64,000 bases of DNA from Arenimonas donghaensis DSM 18148 = HO3-R19 (lineage in GTDB: Bacteria > Pseudomonadota > Gammaproteobacteria > Xanthomonadales > Xanthomonadaceae), in assembly GCF_000743535.1 (NCBI RefSeq), contig NZ_AVCJ01000001.1, forward strand, positions 124,001-188,000, written 5' to 3'. The position numbers were made by a program, and so were the translations under genes. The notes under the pieces were generated by a model that saw nothing but the letters and a program-made list of their open reading frames with translations, ran no database searches and was not told where the DNA came from. Shown piece by piece: positions 1 through 21,439 of the stretch (positions are counted from its first letter, which is position 1; each line of letters begins with the position of its first letter).

Positions 1-1918
1 TTCGATCAACCTGCTGCGCGAATGGCCCGAGCGCCTGAAGTCGATCACCGAAGAGGTGACCGAATACACCGTGCGCGGCAAGGTCATCCGGGTCGAGAAC
101 TACCGCGAGTCCCTGAGCCACCAGAAGATCCCGAAGATCGCCGGCCCGCAGTGGAAGAGCTGGGGCGAACTGCTGGTCTTCCTGGGCAAGGAAAACCTGC
201 CCGGCCATTACCCCTACACCGGCGGCGTGTATCCGTATCGCCGCACCGGCGAAGACCCCATCCGCATGTTCGCGGGCGAGGGCACGCCCGAGCGCACCAA
301 CCGCCGCTTCCATTACCTGAGCAAGGGCCAGCCGGCCGCGCGCCTTTCCACCGCTTTCGACTCGGTCACGCTGTACGGCGAAGACCCGGCCGAGCGCCCG
401 GACATCTACGGCAAGATCGGCAACTCCGGCGTCTCCATCGCCACCCTGGACGACATGAAGAAGCTGTACTCGGGCTTCGACCTGTGCGCGCCGACCACCA
501 GCGTGTCGATGACCATCAACGGCCCGGCGCCGATGATCCTGGCGATGTTCATGAACACCGCCATCGACCAGCAGGTCGAGAAGTACCTGCGCGAAGACCA
601 GAAGCGCTGGGACGACGCCCACGCCAAGATCGAGAAGTTCTTCGAAGGCAAGAAGCGCCCCGAATACAGCGGCGAAGTGCCCGAGGGCAACGAAGGCCTG
701 GGCCTGGGCCTGCTGGGCGTCACCGGCGACCAGCTGGTGGACGCGGAAACCTACGAGCGCATCAAGACCCAGACCCTGGCCACCGTGCGCGGCACCGTGC
801 AGGCCGACATCCTGAAGGAAGACCAGGCGCAGAACACCTGCATCTTCAGCACCGAATTCGCCCTGCGCATGATGGGCGACATCCAGCAGTACTTCGTGGA
901 CAACAAGGTCCGCAATTTCTACTCGGTGTCCATCAGCGGTTACCACATTGCCGAAGCCGGGGCGAACCCGATTTCGCAGCTGGCCTTCACGCTGAGCAAC
1001 GGTTTCACCATCGTCGAGTACTACCTGGCGCGCGGCATGCACATCGACGACTTCGCGCCCAACCTGAGCTTCTTCTTCAGCAACGGCATGGACCCGGAGT
1101 ACACCGTGATCGGCCGCGTCGCCCGCCGCATCTGGGCAAGGGCAATGCGCGAACGCTACGGCGCCAACGAGCGCAGCCAGATGCTGAAGTACCACATCCA
1201 GACTTCCGGCCGCAGCCTGCACGCCCAGGAAATCCAGTTCAACGACATCCGCACGACCCTGCAGGCCCTGTACGCGCTGTTCGACAACTGCAACAGCCTG
1301 CACACCAACGCCTACGACGAAGCCATCACCACGCCCACTGAAGAAAGCGTGCGCCGGGCCGTGGCCATCCAGATGATCATCAACAAGGAGCTGGGGCTGA
1401 ACTTCAACGAAAACCCCTGGCAGGGCAGCTTCGCCGTGGAGCAGCTGACCGACCTGGTGGAAGAGGCCGTCTACAAGGAGTTCGAAGCCCTAAGCGAGCG
1501 CGGCGGCGTACTGGGCGCCATGGACACCATGTACCAGCGCGGCAAGATCCAGGAAGAAAGCCTGTACTACGAGCACAAGAAACACGACGGCAGCCTGCCC
1601 CTGGTCGGCGTCAATACCTTCCTGCCCAAGGACCACGCCGGCGAGGTAATGACCGAGATCGAACTGATCCGCTCGACCCCGGAAGAGAAGGGCGCCCAGA
1701 TCGCCAATGTCCGGACCTTCCAGGCCGCGAGAAATTCTCTCAGTGCCCCCGCCACGGCGTCTTCCGGCGCGAAAAACCCCCTAAGCTACCTCCAGACCAC
1801 CGCCCGTGACCGAAAGAACATCTTCGCCGCGTTGATGGAAGCGGTGAAGACCCACAGCCTCGGACAGATCAGCCATGCGCTCTATGAGGTGGGTGGGGAG
1901 TATCGGCGGAATATGTAG
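1..1918 (+). CDS. icmF: Fused isobutyryl-CoA mutase IcmF, C-terminal part (5' end outside window)
   Basis: Adenosylcobalamin-dependent mutase that interconverts isobutyryl-CoA and n-butyryl-CoA. The reading frame is open from base 2, so the N-terminal B12-binding and MeaB-like GTPase domains lie upstream of the window; only the linker and substrate-binding barrel are seen. The two substrate-specificity positions can be read directly: Phe in RMFAGEG (codon 269-271), where methylmalonyl-CoA mutase has Tyr, and Gln in AQNT (codon 830-832), where that enzyme has Arg. This is the IcmF pattern. The catalytic-acid His is in SGYHIAEAG. The C-terminus ([18 protein letters not shown]) is typical of the family, although the roughly 20 residues before it are Ser/Ala-rich. 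A degraded second copy of part of the 3' end lies near 3429. Confidence 0.93.
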
Positions 1919-1948
1919 CTTAGCGTTCGACTGCAAGAAGAGGTTGAT

Positions 1949-3205
1949 GTGACTGAGAATCCAGCATTTCATCTCAATGTGGAAGTTGGACTCCAAGAGC
2001 CAATTACCTTCGACACCCCGGGGAAATTCTCGCATTGGATACAAAGTGAGGCATCCCACTGGAAGCCCTTTAGTGAGGGCGGCGGGTACCACGAATCAGA
2101 TGTGGTCGGGGATTTGGGGCAGCGAGGATCAGCGGAGCATGCGGCCGAGTGGTCAAACTATGCAGAGAGGGCAGAGCAGGCTGCATCAGCCTCTGATGCA
2201 GTCCGTGAGACCCTCATCTTCAGCCTCGCAACTGAGGTCTCTGAAAGGATACTTGCACACGAAATTATCTATTCCAGGAGCCAGCTGGGTTTTCGCATCA
2301 TCTCGCTATTCGAGGTCGATGAGGCCGCCGCTAGAGTGCTGGTTGCAATAAGTACTGGTAGAGATATCAGTCGCGTCATACATCCGAGTAATCTTCGGCG
2401 CTTGTGGCGATCGATACCTAGAACACTTCTGGCCGGTAGCGAAGAGTCTCTGCGCACACATGCCGCACAAGGGGTTCGAGATATCGAATTGAGCGTCGCT
2501 GGCGCTAGAGATAAAGAGGAGGGCCTGGGGCGCACGTTGCGTCAAGCTAAGGAGGCCACTGCTGCAATGGCAGAGGATGCCGAAGTTTTGCTTAGAGAGC
2601 GACTAGAAGTCCTGAAAAGCGAAGCCGATGAGTTCCTGGGCAGTGTTCAGGAGGAGTGGACGGATCTTCGCGCGACCTATGACACACAGTTGGCCTTGAG
2701 AGCACCAAGGAACTATTGGAACGATCGCCGAAGGTCTCATCGTGTTGGTGCATCTATTTGGGGCGCGCTAGCCGCAATATTTGCACTTTTTATTGCATTT
2801 AGACTCGTACCACACGCTTCAGAAATGCTTATCGCAAAGTCGGCCACAATCGTTATTTCGGGGGCCACAAAATTGGATCTTGGTGTCATCCCTTTTTTAC
2901 CCGAGCTATTTCAGATTGCTGTCGTCGGGTTCTTGTGCTTGTGGGCGCTCCGATTTTCGGTTCGGCAGGCCGCTGAACACCTCGGTCGACTTCAGGAAGC
3001 ATCCATCCGGGTAACCATGGTGGAAACGTTCCTGGCGCTCTCGAACCCTAACCAAGAGAATCGAGCACTGGTAGACGAAGCGGACAGAGCCGTAATCGTT
3101 CAAGCCCTATTTCGCCCGGGGCTGGGTGAGGGAATCGATGATGCACCGCCAGTCCACTGGATCGAGGATGTCTTTCGCCGACTTCGGAAGCCATCTGACA
3201 GGTAG
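1949..3205 (+). CDS. Two-TM coiled-coil protein, possibly DUF6161 family
   Basis: 418-residue protein of unknown function. The start is GTG, with an AAGAGG Shine-Dalgarno about 6 bases upstream. A long soluble N-terminal part (1-265) includes a charged, Glu/Arg-rich stretch at about 175-240 that looks coiled-coil. Two hydrophobic segments follow, at about 267-290 and 320-340, then a cytoplasmic-looking tail of about 75 residues. The motif NYWNDRRRSHR just before the first TM resembles what I recall of DUF6161 proteins, but I cannot confirm this. Base composition is clearly richer in A+T than icmF, and AGA, CTA and ATA codons are frequent, which suggests horizontal acquisition. It lies 30 bases after icmF and in front of an OLD nuclease gene, so a defence role is conceivable. 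Confidence 0.75.
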   Translation: MTENPAFHLNVEVGLQEPITFDTPGKFSHWIQSEASHWKPFSEGGGYHESDVVGDLGQRGSAEHAAEWSNYAERAEQAASASDAVRETLIFSLATEVSERILAHEIIYSRSQLGFRIISLFEVDEAAARVLVAISTGRDISRVIHPSNLRRLWRSIPRTLLAGSEESLRTHAAQGVRDIELSVAGARDKEEGLGRTLRQAKEATAAMAEDAEVLLRERLEVLKSEADEFLGSVQEEWTDLRATYDTQLALRAPRNYWNDRRRSHRVGASIWGALAAIFALFIAFRLVPHASEMLIAKSATIVISGATKLDLGVIPFLPELFQIAVVGFLCLWALRFSVRQAAEHLGRLQEASIRVTMVETFLALSNPNQENRALVDEADRAVIVQALFRPGLGEGIDDAPPVHWIEDVFRRLRKPSDR

Positions 3206-3590
3206 CCGTTTGTCGAGTTGCTGCTCTGTGACCGTCAAAATTCTCGCCAACCTGTGAACGCGGTAGGGCGCTGATCGGCGTGGAAGCGGGTAGGTGGGCG
3301 CCGTAATGGCCTACTCAGAATCCTTCCGATGGCCAAGAACGAGTCTCTGTTGCCTCTTTAGCTAACAGAAGGGGCAGGGAGGGATTAAGCCAGGCTCGAT
3401 CGAGGCCCCCAAGTGCTCGCTGAGAATTTTTCAGCGCACCGCGCTTGACCTTCAAAACATCCTCACCGCGTATCTGGAGGTAGTGGAGACGATTCCATCA
3501 TCTACCGCCATGGCTGCGGTCGGCCTAACCCACCGATCGGCTCGCTTACCGATCTGTCTCGAAATGAAATGCTGCTGAGGAAGGGAGTCG
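3206..3590. other. Non-coding stretch with icmF 3'-end remnant
   Basis: 385 bases between the membrane protein and the OLD-family gene without a convincing intact gene. The only recognisable content is a degraded copy of the icmF 3' end at about 3429-3496, listed separately. The promoter and ribosome-binding region of the downstream gene (GAGGAAGGGAG just before 3591) lies at its right end. Confidence 0.6.
3429..3496 (+). pseudogene. Degraded fragment of the icmF 3' end
   Basis: Read in frame from 3429, this stretch encodes FQRTALDLQNILTAYLEVV, followed by ET. It aligns without gaps to [19 protein letters not shown], followed by KT, from the intact icmF at 1790-1855. I count about 10 of 21 residues identical and roughly 70% identity over 66 bases. 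Similarity fades after that, and the frame does not continue with the conserved IcmF tail. The simplest reading is that this is a leftover icmF 3' end, displaced when foreign DNA was inserted behind a functional copy. Chance similarity or a fragment of another mutase gene is not excluded. Confidence 0.45.
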
Positions 3591-5591
3591 ATGCAACTTG
3601 AGCGTGCGCGAATCAAGAACTTTCGGTCACTACGGGACGTGGAAGTGAACTTTGGCTCTCATACAGCGTTTGTCGGCGGTAACGGAGCGGGAAAGTCATC
3701 AATTCTAAAGGCAATTGAGAGGTTCTATTCGACCTCAAAGACGTGCGATCCCGACGATTTCTTTGGTCGTGATCAGGCGCAGGCGATTGAGATTGAACTG
3801 ACGTTCCATCAGCTCAGCGAGCAAGAAGACGAAGCATTTGAGGGTCGAGTTCGCGAAGGAAAGCTGGTCGTTACTCGAATCTTCGATGGCGGTCCTTCAA
3901 GTGGGCGCTACCTCGGCGTGGTGCCACAGAATCCTGACTTCGTAGCGATTAGAGCGCAGTCAGCAGCTACCCCAAAGCGTGCTGCCTACAACACTCTTCG
4001 CGATGACCCGCAATACACCAACTTACCCATCGCGGGCAGTGCGGCAGCGGTAGATCAGGCGCTTCTTGAATGGGAAGCAAACCACCCAAATCAACTAGTG
4101 CTGTTGCACGACGACGGTCAATTTTTTGGATTCCAAAACAATAGCCGCGGAAAGCTTCAGCAGCATACAAGTTTTGTTTTTGTGCCGGCAGTGCGTGAGG
4201 CGTCAGCCGATGCGGCGGACGGCAAGACAAGCGTTATCGGGAGGCTTCTGGAACTAGTAGTGCGCAGTCAGATTCTCCAGCGAAAGGATGTCCAAGCGTT
4301 CAAGGCACAAATGACTCAAGCCTATCAGGCACTAGTTTCTGCCGAGAACATGCCTGAACTCGGATTGCTGGGTGAAACGCTAACTACCGACTTGCGCGAG
4401 CTATACCAGGACGCTGAAGTCACGCTGCGCTGGCGTGAGGTAGGCGAAATGCCGGTCCCGCTTCCAATGGCGGACGTGCTCCTCAAAGACGATGGATTTG
4501 GTGGTCCCGTGGATAGGCAAGGTCACGGACTGCAGCGCGCATTTATTTTCACTCTGCTACAGCATCTCGCGCGCACAGCAGTGCCAGACTCCGAAAATGC
4601 TCGCGCGGATGACGAAGCTGGTTCGGCTGCAGTCGTCGATGGCGAGGCGCAAGCACCGACCCTCATATTGGCGATCGAGGAGCCCGAGCTGTACCAGCAT
4701 CCGACCAAGCAGCGGCATTTCGCAGAAGTTTTGCGGGGCCTTAGTAGTGGCACGCTCCCAGGAGCTCACGGTAAGACGCAGATCATCTTCGGGTCGCATT
4801 CACCGATGTTTATTTCAATGGGGAAGGCCGACGAGGTTCGACTTGCGCGTCGCGCTCCATGTGCGGACAGTGAGTTCAAGCAATGCAGCCTGCAAGCCCT
4901 GGATCTCGATGTCGTAGCTAAGACACTAGAGCGTGGTTGGAGGAAGCCCGCCGGCACCTTCAGTGCGCAGACGCCGATGCCACGGCTTCATATTCTTGGC
5001 ATTGAATTGTCTGAAGGATTCTTCGCTAGTGGGGTCATTCTAGTTGAAGGGCGGAGCGATAAGGCTGCGCTAGAAGCAACGGCGAGGATGCTGGGTGTCA
5101 GTTTCGAGGCTGCGGGCATTGCCATTCTGTCGGCTGAAGGGAAATCCAATCTTGATCGCCCTTATGTCATATTCCGTGAGCTTGGGATTCCTACTTTTAT
5201 ATTGTGGGATTGTGATGGTCATCTGCCAGAAAACAAAAGGTCACCGGGCACTGATCTTGCGTTGATAAGGCTGGCCAGCCCAGGCGCTGAGTTTGATGCA
5301 GCTCCTAGCACTGATTTCGTTGGTGATTGCTACGCACATTTCAGAGAAACATTGGAGCTTAAGCTTGAGGATGAGTTAACTCCTGATGTCTACGCGGCCT
5401 GCCTTGCCGAAGCTTCTGAGCCTTTCGGCGTGTCGCCGGGGCCAGACACTCGGAAGATTCCTGAGATCGTGTATCAGACGCTCCTCAAAGCAAGGGATAG
5501 AGGCAAAGAGAGCCAAATGCTCCAAGATATTGTGCGAGCCGTTTGGCGCTTTCTTCGAGGAGAGGAAATCGCTGAGCCGCCAAAGAACTAG
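3591..5591 (+). CDS. OLD-family AAA ATPase / TOPRIM endonuclease
   Basis: 666-residue ATP-dependent nuclease of the OLD (overcoming lysogenization defect) family. The N-terminal ABC-type ATPase starts with ARIKNFRSL, and the Walker A motif GGNGAGKS is at residues 29-36. The Walker B/signature strand LILAIEEPELYQHP is at about 357-370, followed by the switch His in GSHSP. A C-terminal TOPRIM domain follows: VEGRSDKAAL (Glu near 486) and LWDCDGH (Asp540, Asp542). No UvrD-like helicase (GajB) follows, so it is not a Gabija pair; it looks like a solitary class 1-like OLD protein. Known relatives cut DNA and several act in phage defence. Codon use is A+T-richer than in the flanks, like the gene at 1949. 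The start is ATG after GGAAGGGAG. Confidence 0.88.
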   Translation: MQLERARIKNFRSLRDVEVNFGSHTAFVGGNGAGKSSILKAIERFYSTSKTCDPDDFFGRDQAQAIEIELTFHQLSEQEDEAFEGRVREGKLVVTRIFDGGPSSGRYLGVVPQNPDFVAIRAQSAATPKRAAYNTLRDDPQYTNLPIAGSAAAVDQALLEWEANHPNQLVLLHDDGQFFGFQNNSRGKLQQHTSFVFVPAVREASADAADGKTSVIGRLLELVVRSQILQRKDVQAFKAQMTQAYQALVSAENMPELGLLGETLTTDLRELYQDAEVTLRWREVGEMPVPLPMADVLLKDDGFGGPVDRQGHGLQRAFIFTLLQHLARTAVPDSENARADDEAGSAAVVDGEAQAPTLILAIEEPELYQHPTKQRHFAEVLRGLSSGTLPGAHGKTQIIFGSHSPMFISMGKADEVRLARRAPCADSEFKQCSLQALDLDVVAKTLERGWRKPAGTFSAQTPMPRLHILGIELSEGFFASGVILVEGRSDKAALEATARMLGVSFEAAGIAILSAEGKSNLDRPYVIFRELGIPTFILWDCDGHLPENKRSPGTDLALIRLASPGAEFDAAPSTDFVGDCYAHFRETLELKLEDELTPDVYAACLAEASEPFGVSPGPDTRKIPEIVYQTLLKARDRGKESQMLQDIVRAVWRFLRGEEIAEPPKN

Positions 5592-5631
5592 CTTGGTCAG
5601 TGTCGCCACATTTGTCGTTAGCTGATTCATT

Positions 5632-5865
5632 TCACCCGCTCCGATACGCCCGCACATTGTCCCCAGCAATCCGCATCTTCCGCGTTCCCTCTACCTCGCT
5701 CACCTTGTGATCCGGCCGCGTAATGGGCTCGGCGTCAACGGTCGTCTCGCGCTCGAAGGCATGCGACTTGTCGGTATTGCGGTAGTAGCGGTTGATGGCC
5801 CAGTACAGGCCGGCGGCGCCGGCGGGGTCGAGGGCGAGTTGCCAGAGTCCACTGGCGTCGCTCAT
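5632..5865 (-). CDS. Small hypothetical protein (77 aa)
   Basis: 77-residue soluble protein, not recognised. The composition looks protein-like: a Trp/Tyr-rich start (LYWAINRYYRN) and a charged, Arg-rich C-terminus ending RIAGDNVRAYRSG. The ATG overlaps the TGA of the small gene upstream on the same strand (TGATG at 5863-5867), which implies translational coupling. It runs convergently towards the OLD nuclease gene, 40 bases away. A mobile-element or phage origin is possible but nothing in the sequence proves it. Confidence 0.5.
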   Translation of the reverse strand: MSDASGLWQLALDPAGAAGLYWAINRYYRNTDKSHAFERETTVDAEPITRPDHKVSEVEGTRKMRIAGDNVRAYRSG

Positions 5866-6011
5866 CAGTTCATTCCTATCAGGGCGGCGATGACGGCCGG
5901 TTCAGTGAAGGTGCCGATGGTCAGTGCGGCCATCAGCAGCTTCCAGCGCTGGATCGGGATACTGCCCATGGATTCGCCAGTGCGGCCGTTCACTGCAATG
6001 TAGCGCAGCAT
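5865..6011 (-). CDS. Small membrane-associated hypothetical protein (48 aa), possibly truncated
   Basis: A 48-codon frame from an ATG at 6011, with a hydrophobic segment (LLMAALTIGTFTEPAVIAALIG) near the C-terminus. It ends in a TGA that shares one base with the ATG of the 77-residue gene downstream. Protein-like sequence continues in frame upstream of the ATG (the peptide GPHAAQPDANGH) as far as an in-frame stop at 6075-6077. The visible gene may therefore be the tail of a longer gene whose start is lost. No family recognised. Confidence 0.4.
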   Translation of the reverse strand: MLRYIAVNGRTGESMGSIPIQRWKLLMAALTIGTFTEPAVIAALIGMN

Positions 6012-6125
6012 GTGGCCGTTGGCGTCGGGCTGAGCGGCGTGTGGTCCATTGGCGGCCAGCCGCGATCTGGATAATCAGGCGACCCTGACCGACAATCTCG
6101 ACAGCCCCAGCTTCCCCGGAAGTCC

Positions 6126-7256
6126 ATGAATTCTCCTCAGTCTCCCGTTTTCTGGACGCCTGGCGCCTGGCTACGGAGTCTCTCTCATCTGATTCTGTGG
6201 GCCGGGGTGGTCATCGTGATGGGGCCGGTCATGCGCGAGGTGATGCCGGCCGTGCGTGGTCTGGAGTACCGGCTCCTCGCCGGGCTGAGTCTCTTTCTGG
6301 GTTTGGCTTTGCTTGCGTTGGTTCTCCATGAGCTGGGTCACTACCTGGCCGCACGGTGGCAAGGCTGCAGGGTGCTGAGTGTGCATCTGGGGCCGGTTGA
6401 CCTGCGGCCGCAGCGGGGTCGTTGGCAATTTCGGTGGGTTGGCAGCGCCTCCTGGCTCTCCGGTGCGGTGATGGCGCTTCCTCGCATGGACAAGCCCTTT
6501 CGTACGCAGATGCTCTGGTACGTCAGCGGCGGCTCCTTGGCGGGTTTGCTGGTAGGTGCCTTGGCCGCATGGGCGGGCTGGGCAGGCGGTGATGCCGATT
6601 GGGCGGGGGTCCTGACGGGCTTCGGCGTTATCAATGTGCTCATCGGGGCCGCCAACTTGCTCCCTCTGGGCCCCATGACCGACGGAACGCAGCTTGTCAG
6701 GCTACTCAAAGGTATGGATCTGGGTCAGCCCGGCATGGAGGCGATTGAACTGAACATGCGGGCAATGGAAGGACAAACCGCAGACGAAATGCCCGAGCAC
6801 CTGATGGAAGGACTGGAGCGTGAATCACCGCCGATGGCTCTCTGGTTTCGCACCTTCGCCGCATTGAACCGTCAGGACTGGGACGCCGTGCAAGCGCAGA
6901 GTGATTGTCTGGACGCCTGGGAGGCTTCCCTGGGTCGGTCGTCCCGTCCGGCTTGGGCTGTTTTCATAGGAGTTCTCCGCGGAGAGATGCGGTTCGTCCG
7001 GGGATTGCAGGGTGCCGGGTTTGTACCGGAAAAAGACGATGCTTTGCGCCGGGAGATTTGTCGGCTGCGTCCAGGTGTGGAAGACAGGCACCTGGCCTTG
7101 GTTCATGCGCTGGCAGGGGACACGGTCAAACGTGACAACGCGCTGGAGCGAGCGGAGCGGGAGTCCGAGTTCAACCCGGACCCTGCGTCACGAAAAACGG
7201 AACAACGGCTGCGGAACCTGGTTCGCAACCTTCCCATTGCCGAGAGGGCTGCCTGA
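6126..7256 (+). CDS. M50 (site-2-protease-like) membrane metalloprotease
   Basis: 376-residue polytopic membrane protein. A HELGH zinc motif sits inside a hydrophobic helix (His68, Glu69, His72). The second family motif, NLLPLGPMTDG, supplies the third ligand (Asp186). This pair of motifs is diagnostic for intramembrane S2P/SpoIVFB-like peptidases. Hydrophobic helices occupy roughly residues 17-37, 48-78, 110-125 and 130-190. The C-terminal 180 residues are soluble, helical and hydrophilic, with no recognised domain. No anti-sigma factor or PDZ domain is seen, so the substrate is unknown. The ATG follows a CCGGAAG sequence, and the gene stands alone. Confidence 0.85.
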   Translation: MNSPQSPVFWTPGAWLRSLSHLILWAGVVIVMGPVMREVMPAVRGLEYRLLAGLSLFLGLALLALVLHELGHYLAARWQGCRVLSVHLGPVDLRPQRGRWQFRWVGSASWLSGAVMALPRMDKPFRTQMLWYVSGGSLAGLLVGALAAWAGWAGGDADWAGVLTGFGVINVLIGAANLLPLGPMTDGTQLVRLLKGMDLGQPGMEAIELNMRAMEGQTADEMPEHLMEGLERESPPMALWFRTFAALNRQDWDAVQAQSDCLDAWEASLGRSSRPAWAVFIGVLRGEMRFVRGLQGAGFVPEKDDALRREICRLRPGVEDRHLALVHALAGDTVKRDNALERAERESEFNPDPASRKTEQRLRNLVRNLPIAERAA

Positions 7257-19911: not shown

Positions 19912-20014
19912 TCCGGAAGAATGCCCCGATGGGGGATACCCTCATCTTAAATTTGCGTGAAGCGTGAAAAACGCGGGGTGTTACCCTGAGCCTTCAGTCG
20001 CCGAAGGAGCCAGG

Positions 20015-21439
20015 ATGCCGCAGCAACCGCCGCCGTTCGACGAAATGGGTTGGCCCGACGCCATCCGGCCGCCTTATTCGCTGATCGATGCCTGGCTCAA
20101 GTCCGCCACGGCCGATCAATTGGCGCTCAAGCGGCGCGAAGCGGAAGTGCTGTTCCGGCGCATCGGCATCACCTTCGCGGTGTACACCGAGGGCGGGGAC
20201 GCCGAACGCCTGATTCCTTTCGACCTGATCCCGCGCGTCATGGCCCAGGCCGAATGGCAGCGGCTTCGCAAGGGCCTGGAACAGCGCGCCAAGGCGCTCA
20301 ACGCCTTCCTGCACGATGTCTACCACGACCGCGACATCATCCGCGCCGGGAAGATTCCCGAGAAGCTGATCCTGCACAACGCCGAGTTCCGCCCGGAAAT
20401 GAACGGGCTGGACCTGCCGGGCCACATCTATTCGCATATCTCGGGCATCGACATGGTGCGCACCGGGCCCGACGACTACTACGTGCTCGAAGACAACTGC
20501 CGCACGCCCTCGGGTGTGTCGTACATGGTCGAAAACCGGGAAGTGATGCAGCGGCTGTTCCCCGACCTGTTCCGGCGGGCGAGGGTGGCGCCGGTGGCGC
20601 ATTACGCCGACGAGCTGCTCGAAACCCTGCGCTCGGTGGCACCGCCGAACTGCCACGGCGAACCGACCGTGGCCTTGCTGACGCCGGGCATCCACAACAG
20701 TGCCTACTACGAACACGCCTTCCTGGCCGACGAAATGGGCATCGACCTGGTCGAGGGCGCCGACCTGATCGTGCGCAACGACATTTGTTACATGCGCACG
20801 ACGGCGGGCCTGGAGCGCGTGGACGTCATCTACCGGCGCATCGACGATGCCTACCTGGATCCGCTGGTGTTCCGCCCCGAATCGATGCTTGGCTGCGCCG
20901 GCCTGCACTTCGCCGAGCGCGCCGGCAACCTCACCATCACCAATGCCATCGGCGGTGGCATCGCCGACGACAAGGCGGTGTACATCCACGTGCCCGAGAT
21001 GGTGCGCTTCTACCTGGGCGAAGAGCCGCTGCTGAGCAACGTGCCCACCTACGACTGCAGCAAGCCCGACGAGCTCAAGTACGTGCTCGAGCACCTGGAC
21101 GAACTGGTCGTGAAGGCGGTCCATGGCTCCGGCGGCTACGGCATGCTGGTGGGGCCGCACGCGAGCAAGGCGCAGCTGCAGGAGTTCCGCGACCTGCTCA
21201 AGACCAAGCCTGAAACCTATATCGCCCAGCCGACGCTGGCGCTGTCCACGGTGCCCACCTTCGTCGAGTCCGGCGTCGCGCCGCGCCATGTCGACCTGCG
21301 GCCGTTCGTGCTGTCGGGCAGCGACAAGATGCGCGTGGTGCCGGGCGGGCTGACCCGCGTGGCATTGAAGGAAGGCTCCCTGGTGGTCAATTCGTCGCAA
21401 GGCGGTGGCACCAAGGACACCTGGGTGTTGGAGGAGTGA
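20015..21439 (+). CDS. Circularly permuted ATP-grasp type 2 protein (Anbu operon)
   Basis: 474-residue protein of the circularly permuted ATP-grasp type (DUF404/DUF407). Typical elements are GITFAVYTEGGDAERLIPFD, HIYSHISGIDMVRTGPDDYYVLEDNCRTPSGVSYMVENR (cited in parts) and VVKAVHGSGGYGMLVGP, a glycine-rich ATP-binding loop. Relatives are thought to ligate amino acids or peptides, but no product is established. The ATG at 20015 is preceded by AAGGAGCCAGG. Its stop overlaps the start of the alpha-E gene, so it heads the operon. Upstream is a small GCGT-ACGC hairpin at 19962-19974. Confidence 0.9.
   Translation: MPQQPPPFDEMGWPDAIRPPYSLIDAWLKSATADQLALKRREAEVLFRRIGITFAVYTEGGDAERLIPFDLIPRVMAQAEWQRLRKGLEQRAKALNAFLHDVYHDRDIIRAGKIPEKLILHNAEFRPEMNGLDLPGHIYSHISGIDMVRTGPDDYYVLEDNCRTPSGVSYMVENREVMQRLFPDLFRRARVAPVAHYADELLETLRSVAPPNCHGEPTVALLTPGIHNSAYYEHAFLADEMGIDLVEGADLIVRNDICYMRTTAGLERVDVIYRRIDDAYLDPLVFRPESMLGCAGLHFAERAGNLTITNAIGGGIADDKAVYIHVPEMVRFYLGEEPLLSNVPTYDCSKPDELKYVLEHLDELVVKAVHGSGGYGMLVGPHASKAQLQEFRDLLKTKPETYIAQPTLALSTVPTFVESGVAPRHVDLRPFVLSGSDKMRVVPGGLTRVALKEGSLVVNSSQGGGTKDTWVLEE

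Follow-up and report, generated by a model that had tools for sequence, protein, structure and literature searches.

Two A+T-rich genes that stand side by side on contig NZ_AVCJ01000001.1 of the gammaproteobacterium Arenimonas donghaensis DSM 18148 = HO3-R19 (assembly GCF_000743535.1), one coding for a DUF6161 protein and the other for an OLD-family nuclease, are likely to be two independent single-gene phage defenses that were added serially at a defense hotspot at the 3′ end of icmF, the gene for fused isobutyryl-CoA mutase. Both lie in the window, by which we mean the whole 64,000-nucleotide (nt) stretch analyzed here (contig positions 124,001 to 188,000, forward strand); all coordinates below are window positions. 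This reading is built on the families of the two proteins, the conserved catalytic residues of the nuclease, the lack of co-occurrence of the two genes, a relic of the icmF tail between them, the variable cargo behind icmF in related genomes, and copies of the icmF tail in relatives. The original prediction had joined the genes in one defense module made of the nuclease and a membrane partner. Assignment of both to defense still stands because of their family membership, their patchy and mobile distribution, and their position, whereas the single module does not.

Distribution of the two genes

The DUF6161 gene (1949-3205, plus strand) and the OLD gene (3591-5591, plus strand) were not found together in relatives of either. 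Scanning genome_contigs with an alignment of three OLD orthologues gave 27 loci, 24 of which hold an OLD relative of 53-79% identity and nearly full length, the other three holding a 43% relative, a partial relative (L099), and a 29% archaeal relative; two plasmid loci bring the total to 29 (L077 and L026 are from the same species). A tblastn search with the DUF6161 protein against all 29 gave nothing better than an expectation value (E) of 3.5, and a blastp search with the OLD protein found no open frame matching at E 0.01 in 14 DUF6161 loci, which come from 13 genomes. Co-occurrence therefore failed in both directions, with the pair present in 0/29 and 0/14 loci, and the OLD-DUF6161 two-gene system was rejected; several of these loci are cut by contig ends, and a few partners could have been missed. 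In a set of 61 genomes, made up of the window's own and those of 60 relatives, DUF6161 occurs in two, OLD below E 1e-50 in three, and both in the window's genome only. In addition, DNA similarity with the closest OLD relatives starts at the ATG or at most 9 nt from it, so that little beyond the OLD gene itself is shared with them.

The coordinates, frames, and A+T-rich composition of both genes held up on re-checking, and their predicted contrast with GC-rich surroundings is borne out: each has 54% G+C, compared with 63-71% in the remaining open frames listed within 16 kb. Pfam identifies the genes upstream of OLD as DUF6161 and icmF and the one downstream as an M50 peptidase gene. A promoter and terminator scan of 1700-6200 was uninformative (no promoter-like sites versus 1.8 in shuffles, and two terminator-like sites versus 3.8).

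The icmF tail and its copies

The 385-nt gap between the two genes (3206-3590) contains, at 3422-3491 (plus strand), a decayed icmF 3′ end, which corresponds to positions 3-72 of a 138-position tail model, the remainder being unrecognized. Using a model built without the window, this relic scores 25.4 bits, a value reached by none of 1000 dinucleotide shuffles (best 6.8); by nhmmer its E is 1.2e-6 over the 21 sequences searched, the next unrelated match having 0.094. An icmF remnant in the gap had been proposed from the outset, as had its effect of weakening the case for one operon, and we agree on both counts: lying between the genes, the decayed tail suggests that OLD and DUF6161 arrived separately.

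The icmF gene itself forms the left border of the hotspot. Its C-terminal part lies at 56-1918 (plus strand), where it scores 1058.7 bits with NF045497, below the 1500 cut-off, the gene being truncated by the window start; the copy has an intact C-terminal end, and the full open frame in the genome is 1280 codons. Its last 45 codons and stop (1781-1918, plus strand) are the unit that recurs as extra copies in some related genomes. In the window and 19 relatives, the linker before this conserved tail (around 1700-1790) varies greatly from species to species, both in its sequence and in its length, and icmF outside the linker is mostly 89-97% identical across the same species.

Across the order, the icmF tail was matched (E 1e-4) in 213 of 299 genomes, 15 of which gave two or three matches. 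Eight of these 15 were fetched, and in all eight the extra copies follow icmF at a distance of 0.3-8.2 kb and on the same strand. Within the genus, full second copies occur in G016 and G025, alongside the relic of the window. The tail of a core gene (19964-21439), taken as a control, matched 72 of the 299 genomes, with four second matches that lie in other long open frames of 855-915 codons and no tail-only copy in any of the 72. In Rhodanobacter sp. OK091, icmF is followed by a partial tail, a full second tail, and then an OLD relative of 79% identity, about 8.6 kb behind icmF.

Cargo behind icmF

The icmF C-terminus was matched in the window's genome and 20 others out of 27 in the genus, and the regions behind it were fetched for those 20; in four of them, this sequence ends early (within about 1.1 kb of icmF for G018, G026, and G010; within 1.7 kb for G001), and content was seen in part. 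What follows icmF differs between most of these genomes. A right border block (5631-6032 in the window), with its start at 5631-5654, is common to the window and six of the other 20 genomes, in which it lies 314, 1278, 2572, 5260, 7410, and 8726 nt from the icmF stop, and 3712 nt (to 5631) in the window. The content between icmF and this flank is mostly different among the seven, and the flank was not matched in the other 14 genus genomes within the stretch fetched. Moreover, the first 2 kb behind icmF have lower G+C than sequence 6-10 kb away in 12 of 14 genus genomes (p 0.0015).

Cargo proteins were selected for lying behind icmF and for low G+C, and the cargo counts thus describe a non-random sample. 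Within the genus, Pfam scans covered 11 of the 20 relatives (G018, G003, G002, G022, G004, G012, G008, G006, G025, G020, and G026) and PADLOC scans covered seven (G018, G003, G002, G004, G012, G006, and G020). PADLOC matches at E up to 1e-4 were obtained in the cargo of eight of 14 genomes besides the window: an AriA/Old/GajA-like ATPase, cut by a contig end, in G018; PDC-S33 and RelA/SpoT in G002; PDC-S15 with NsnA, and FRG with GmrSD, in G004; PD-Lambda-4_A (5.9e-15) in G012; a methylase with DpdB in G006 and again in G048; PDC-M71A and B in G020; and a PDC-M55A/NsnB-like protein in G852. By Pfam, the cargo includes NACHT in G028, nSTAND5 with SIR2 in G1038, HATPase in G826, HATPase with a methyltransferase and a cytosine methylase in G918, AAA_21 in G022, and an M78 peptidase and Beta protein in G025; no Pfam family was found in the cargo of G003 and G026. 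In G024 and G001, one gene starts 3 nt past the icmF stop; in G006, this gene is separated from icmF by three others of 35-41% G+C. Pfam detected no integrase domain at E 0.01 in 30 cargo proteins. A search of the open-access literature for methylmalonyl-CoA mutase with defense island or hotspot returned no paper, and the mutase is not named in the main text, as available to us, of a study of Stenotrophomonas maltophilia islands (PMC11680222).

The OLD nuclease

The OLD protein (666 residues) carries PF13175 and PF20469 and matches the PADLOC Old model at E 4.7e-51. Its Walker A, Walker B, and TOPRIM acidic residues, predicted to be intact, are indeed invariant, together with a histidine (H403), across the 19 sequences of alignment A3, which holds the window and 18 of the 29 OLD loci (without L026, L027, L076, L077, L079, L080, L086, L087, L091, L098, and L099). 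These residues are G29, N31, G32, G34, K35, and S36 of Walker A (residues 29-36; 3675-3698), E363 and E364 of the Walker B region (residues 358-364; 4662-4682), and E486, D490, D540, and D542 of the TOPRIM domain (residues 477-542; 5019-5216; PF20469, E 2.8e-18), all on the plus strand. Pfam and the alignment thereby supply both the ATPase and the TOPRIM features required of a class 1 OLD nuclease. The best match in the PDB, by sequence profile and by fold, is the class 1 protein TsOLD of Thermus scotoductus (6p74), followed by GajA and, by fold, the Eco8 effector; the predicted model has a mean local distance difference test score (pLDDT) of 76 and a predicted template-modeling score (pTM) of 0.65. 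Class 1 is the best filing for the protein on sequence and model, with DNA cutting as its predicted activity, and it is probably a stand-alone defense gene.

Like P2 Old and TsOLD, the window OLD is a single gene with an N-terminal ABC ATPase and a C-terminal TOPRIM domain with its acids. It differs from TsOLD in length (666 versus 528 residues), with 20% identity in the fold alignment and a template-modeling score of 0.48 by query length, and it adjoins other defense-type genes, whereas class 1 genes are described, in the part of the source available to us, as not being near other candidate defense genes (PMC10568477). GajA of Gabija, a class 2 OLD protein, has the same ATPase-TOPRIM build, and many PADLOC GajA models match; however, its sequence and fold match is weaker than that of TsOLD. 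The ATPase part also matches AriA of PARIS (2.2e-35), but the window OLD unites ATPase and TOPRIM in one protein and no separate AriB was identified. In agreement with the original prediction, neither GajB (a UvrD-like helicase) nor the reverse transcriptase of a retron (class 3 OLD) was found by Pfam in the four neighboring proteins, farther neighbors being unscanned and retron noncoding RNA not searched.

By record title, the OLD loci are mostly from Alphaproteobacteria and also from Rhodanobacter, Xanthomonas, Stenotrophomonas, and Pseudoxanthomonas. None was found in viral contigs. Phage records gave five matches, namely two records of Burkholderia phage KS5 (32% identity over 84%), two of P2 (24.9% over 52%), and one unannotated record. 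Relics of the Paracoccus and Roseibium neighbor genes were sought beside the window OLD, and none was convincing (best E 0.013). Two of the 24 closer copies are split into two open frames (L086, 7741-9744, and L098, 6855-8874, in locus coordinates) and are probably broken.

Neighborhoods of OLD vary, and none of the neighbors is common to all 30 loci (those of the 29 relatives plus that of the window), as befits a single gene. Single loci adjoin Wadjet JetCD-type genes, a DEAD helicase, or HD-CE. An nSTAND3-type gene stands beside OLD in 7/30 loci and SbcCD-like genes in 6-7/30, with neither in 17/30; the Pfam naming of these neighbors was tested on L026 and L027 only. The nSTAND3-type gene (about 770 residues unless cut by a contig end) follows OLD in L027 (14025-16343), L078, L079, L080, L087, L094, and L096, overlapping it by 4 nt in L027, L078, L079, L080, and L096, and this arrangement makes a stronger candidate than the window pair for a genuine system of OLD plus partner. 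The SbcCD-like exonuclease and ATPase pair adjoins OLD in L026 (14080-17831), L075, L076, L077, L084, and L090; it lies downstream on the same strand, but on the opposite strand in L090, and four of these neighborhoods are nearly identical. Directly upstream of OLD in L084 (9684-9965), L085, L086, L092, and L098 is a small open frame of 93-113 residues, possibly a regulator, with a weak WYL-domain match in L084 (E 3.7e-4, under the Pfam cut-off) and none in L092.

The DUF6161 protein

The DUF6161 gene starts with a GTG codon 30 nt past the icmF stop and encodes 418 residues that score 34.2 bits with PF19658 (E 2.2e-8), above the Pfam cut-off of 27. The protein is predicted to be helical and coiled-coil-like over a long stretch and has two hydrophobic, putative membrane segments, as foreseen in the description of a coiled-coil protein with two transmembrane helices: residues 266-284 (2744-2800, plus strand; Kyte-Doolittle 2.21 over 19 residues) and 313-331 (2885-2941, plus strand; 2.05 over 19 residues). 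The PADLOC AbiZ model matches 11 of 12 aligned members at E up to 0.01, the best at 1.3e-20 (alignment A2 holds the window and 11 of the 14 loci, L113, L118, and L123 being excluded as fragmentary or divergent). The window gene is, by these profile matches, probably an AbiZ-like abortive-infection gene. In Lactococcus, AbiZ is described in the available part of one source as causing premature lysis of infected cells (PMC4987407).

The family is rare, occurring in 5/369 class genomes and 10/329 phylum genomes, with the window's own counted in both. Loci L122 and L123 are under the Pfam cut-off, and a sub-threshold match occurs in G409, outside the loci fetched with their surroundings. A tblastn search with DUF6161 matched nothing in plasmids and phages; pattern matches were obtained in viral contigs, as well as in genome_contigs when the single protein was used, and none of them was confirmed. 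Comparison with solved structures gave weak matches only (best E 0.03, to a keratin coiled coil), and a full-text search of the open-access literature for DUF6161 returned no paper. In G029 (L110, 34-2190), the DUF6161 gene lies upstream of an apparent tRNA gene that is followed by a repeated tRNA 3′ end (identified by eye), a setting that suggests a mobile-looking, tRNA-targeting island.

Discussion

We infer that each gene would protect against phages by ending the infected cell. Most likely, the OLD protein acts like P2 Old and other class 1 proteins, with its ABC ATPase sensing a phage-induced state, upon which the TOPRIM site would cut DNA and the infection would abort. DUF6161 most likely acts like AbiZ, as a coiled-coil membrane protein that would perturb the membrane during infection and end the cell before phage mature. 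As for their arrival, we infer that at least some incoming pieces bring their own copy of the last ~45 icmF codons, which would complete icmF on entry, while the old tail is displaced downstream and decays; with serial insertion of this kind, OLD would be the older and DUF6161 the younger arrival. Since no integrase domain was detected in the cargo scanned, we propose that the pieces enter by homologous recombination between tails or with the help of an enzyme supplied in trans.

Phage 21 and e14, at icd, are examples of elements that restore a host gene at its 3′ end. The icmF site resembles these and other core-gene hotspots in having variable cargo at a fixed gene end that is duplicated in some genomes, and differs in that the cargo is often one to three genes and integrase domains are absent from the 30 proteins scanned. 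It is tempting to speculate that the last ~45 icmF codons are the landing site of unrecognized, very small, integrase-less cassettes, made up of single defense genes and a spare icmF tail, that rebuild icmF and stack behind it in several families of the order. We hold this extension to be tentative and rather doubtful, since most of the cargo seen has no displaced tail with it.

Several further observations weigh against serial addition of phage defenses at icmF. No second tail or relic is present in the stretch examined of 18/21 genus genomes, and cargo stands without a second tail in G006, G002, G004, G012, G020, and G022, as well as in G852, G1046, and G826; moreover, the icmF tail had 213 genomes with a match and the control tail only 72. 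G024 and G001 have the same first gene behind icmF, and the low-G+C signal is weak elsewhere in the order (10/15 genomes, p 0.053). PADLOC found nothing in the cargo of 6/14 genomes (G003, G913, G028, G1038, G826, and G1046), and nine of the 20 genus relatives (G023, G005, G021, G013, G009, G024, G001, G016, and G010) fall outside the cargo scans. The window DUF6161 protein matches AbiZ weakly (20.9 bits, E 4.8e-5), through residues 174-285, which are mostly coiled coil and the first membrane segment, and over positions 191-288 only of the 398-position profile; its single-sequence model (pLDDT 45) is too poor for fold comparison. Finally, the phage link of both genes is a prediction from sequence.

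How, then, do other explanations fare? That the membrane protein is the effector of an OLD sensor-nuclease would fit two genes of defense families, both A+T-rich, on the same strand and 385 nt apart. We nevertheless judge such a system highly improbable, given its absence from every OLD and DUF6161 locus compared (some cut by contig ends), the icmF-tail relic that separates the genes, and DNA similarity to the closest OLD relatives that begins at or within 9 nt of the start codon. A better case, still an unlikely one, is that the window OLD is an orphan whose partner was lost, either the nSTAND3-type gene, which overlaps OLD by 4 nt in five of its seven loci, or the SbcCD-like pair, four of whose six to seven neighborhoods are nearly one; against it, more than half of the loci (17/30) have neither neighbor, and copies without either retain the catalytic residues.

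Alternatively, one or both genes might be DNA repair, cell-cycle, or membrane genes that were carried along. The archaeal OLD ATPase Cran1 is reported, in the part of the article available to us, to function in the cell cycle (PMC12796447), and the phage role proposed here is itself indirect. Yet we find this quite unlikely in view of the patchy presence of both genes (DUF6161 in 2/61 genomes and OLD below 1e-50 in 3/61), relatives on plasmids and in another class, and neighbors and site-mates of defense type. Two independent phage defenses added serially behind icmF thus remain our preferred reading.

Both genes belong to known families, and the hotspot is the more notable result: a false two-gene system has been removed and replaced by a checkable site, and the icmF 3′ end can be read across genomes of the order to collect candidate defense genes. 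DUF6161, an unnamed family, is now tied to AbiZ. One study defines class 1 by the occurrence of OLD as a single gene, names P2 Old as the sole member shown by then to be phage-protective, and poses as an open question whether such a protein can confer broad defense by itself (PMC10568477); anti-phage phenotypes have also been reported for YbjD (PMC13261556). A solitary, intact OLD family that moves between classes, such as the one described here, would be useful for addressing that question.

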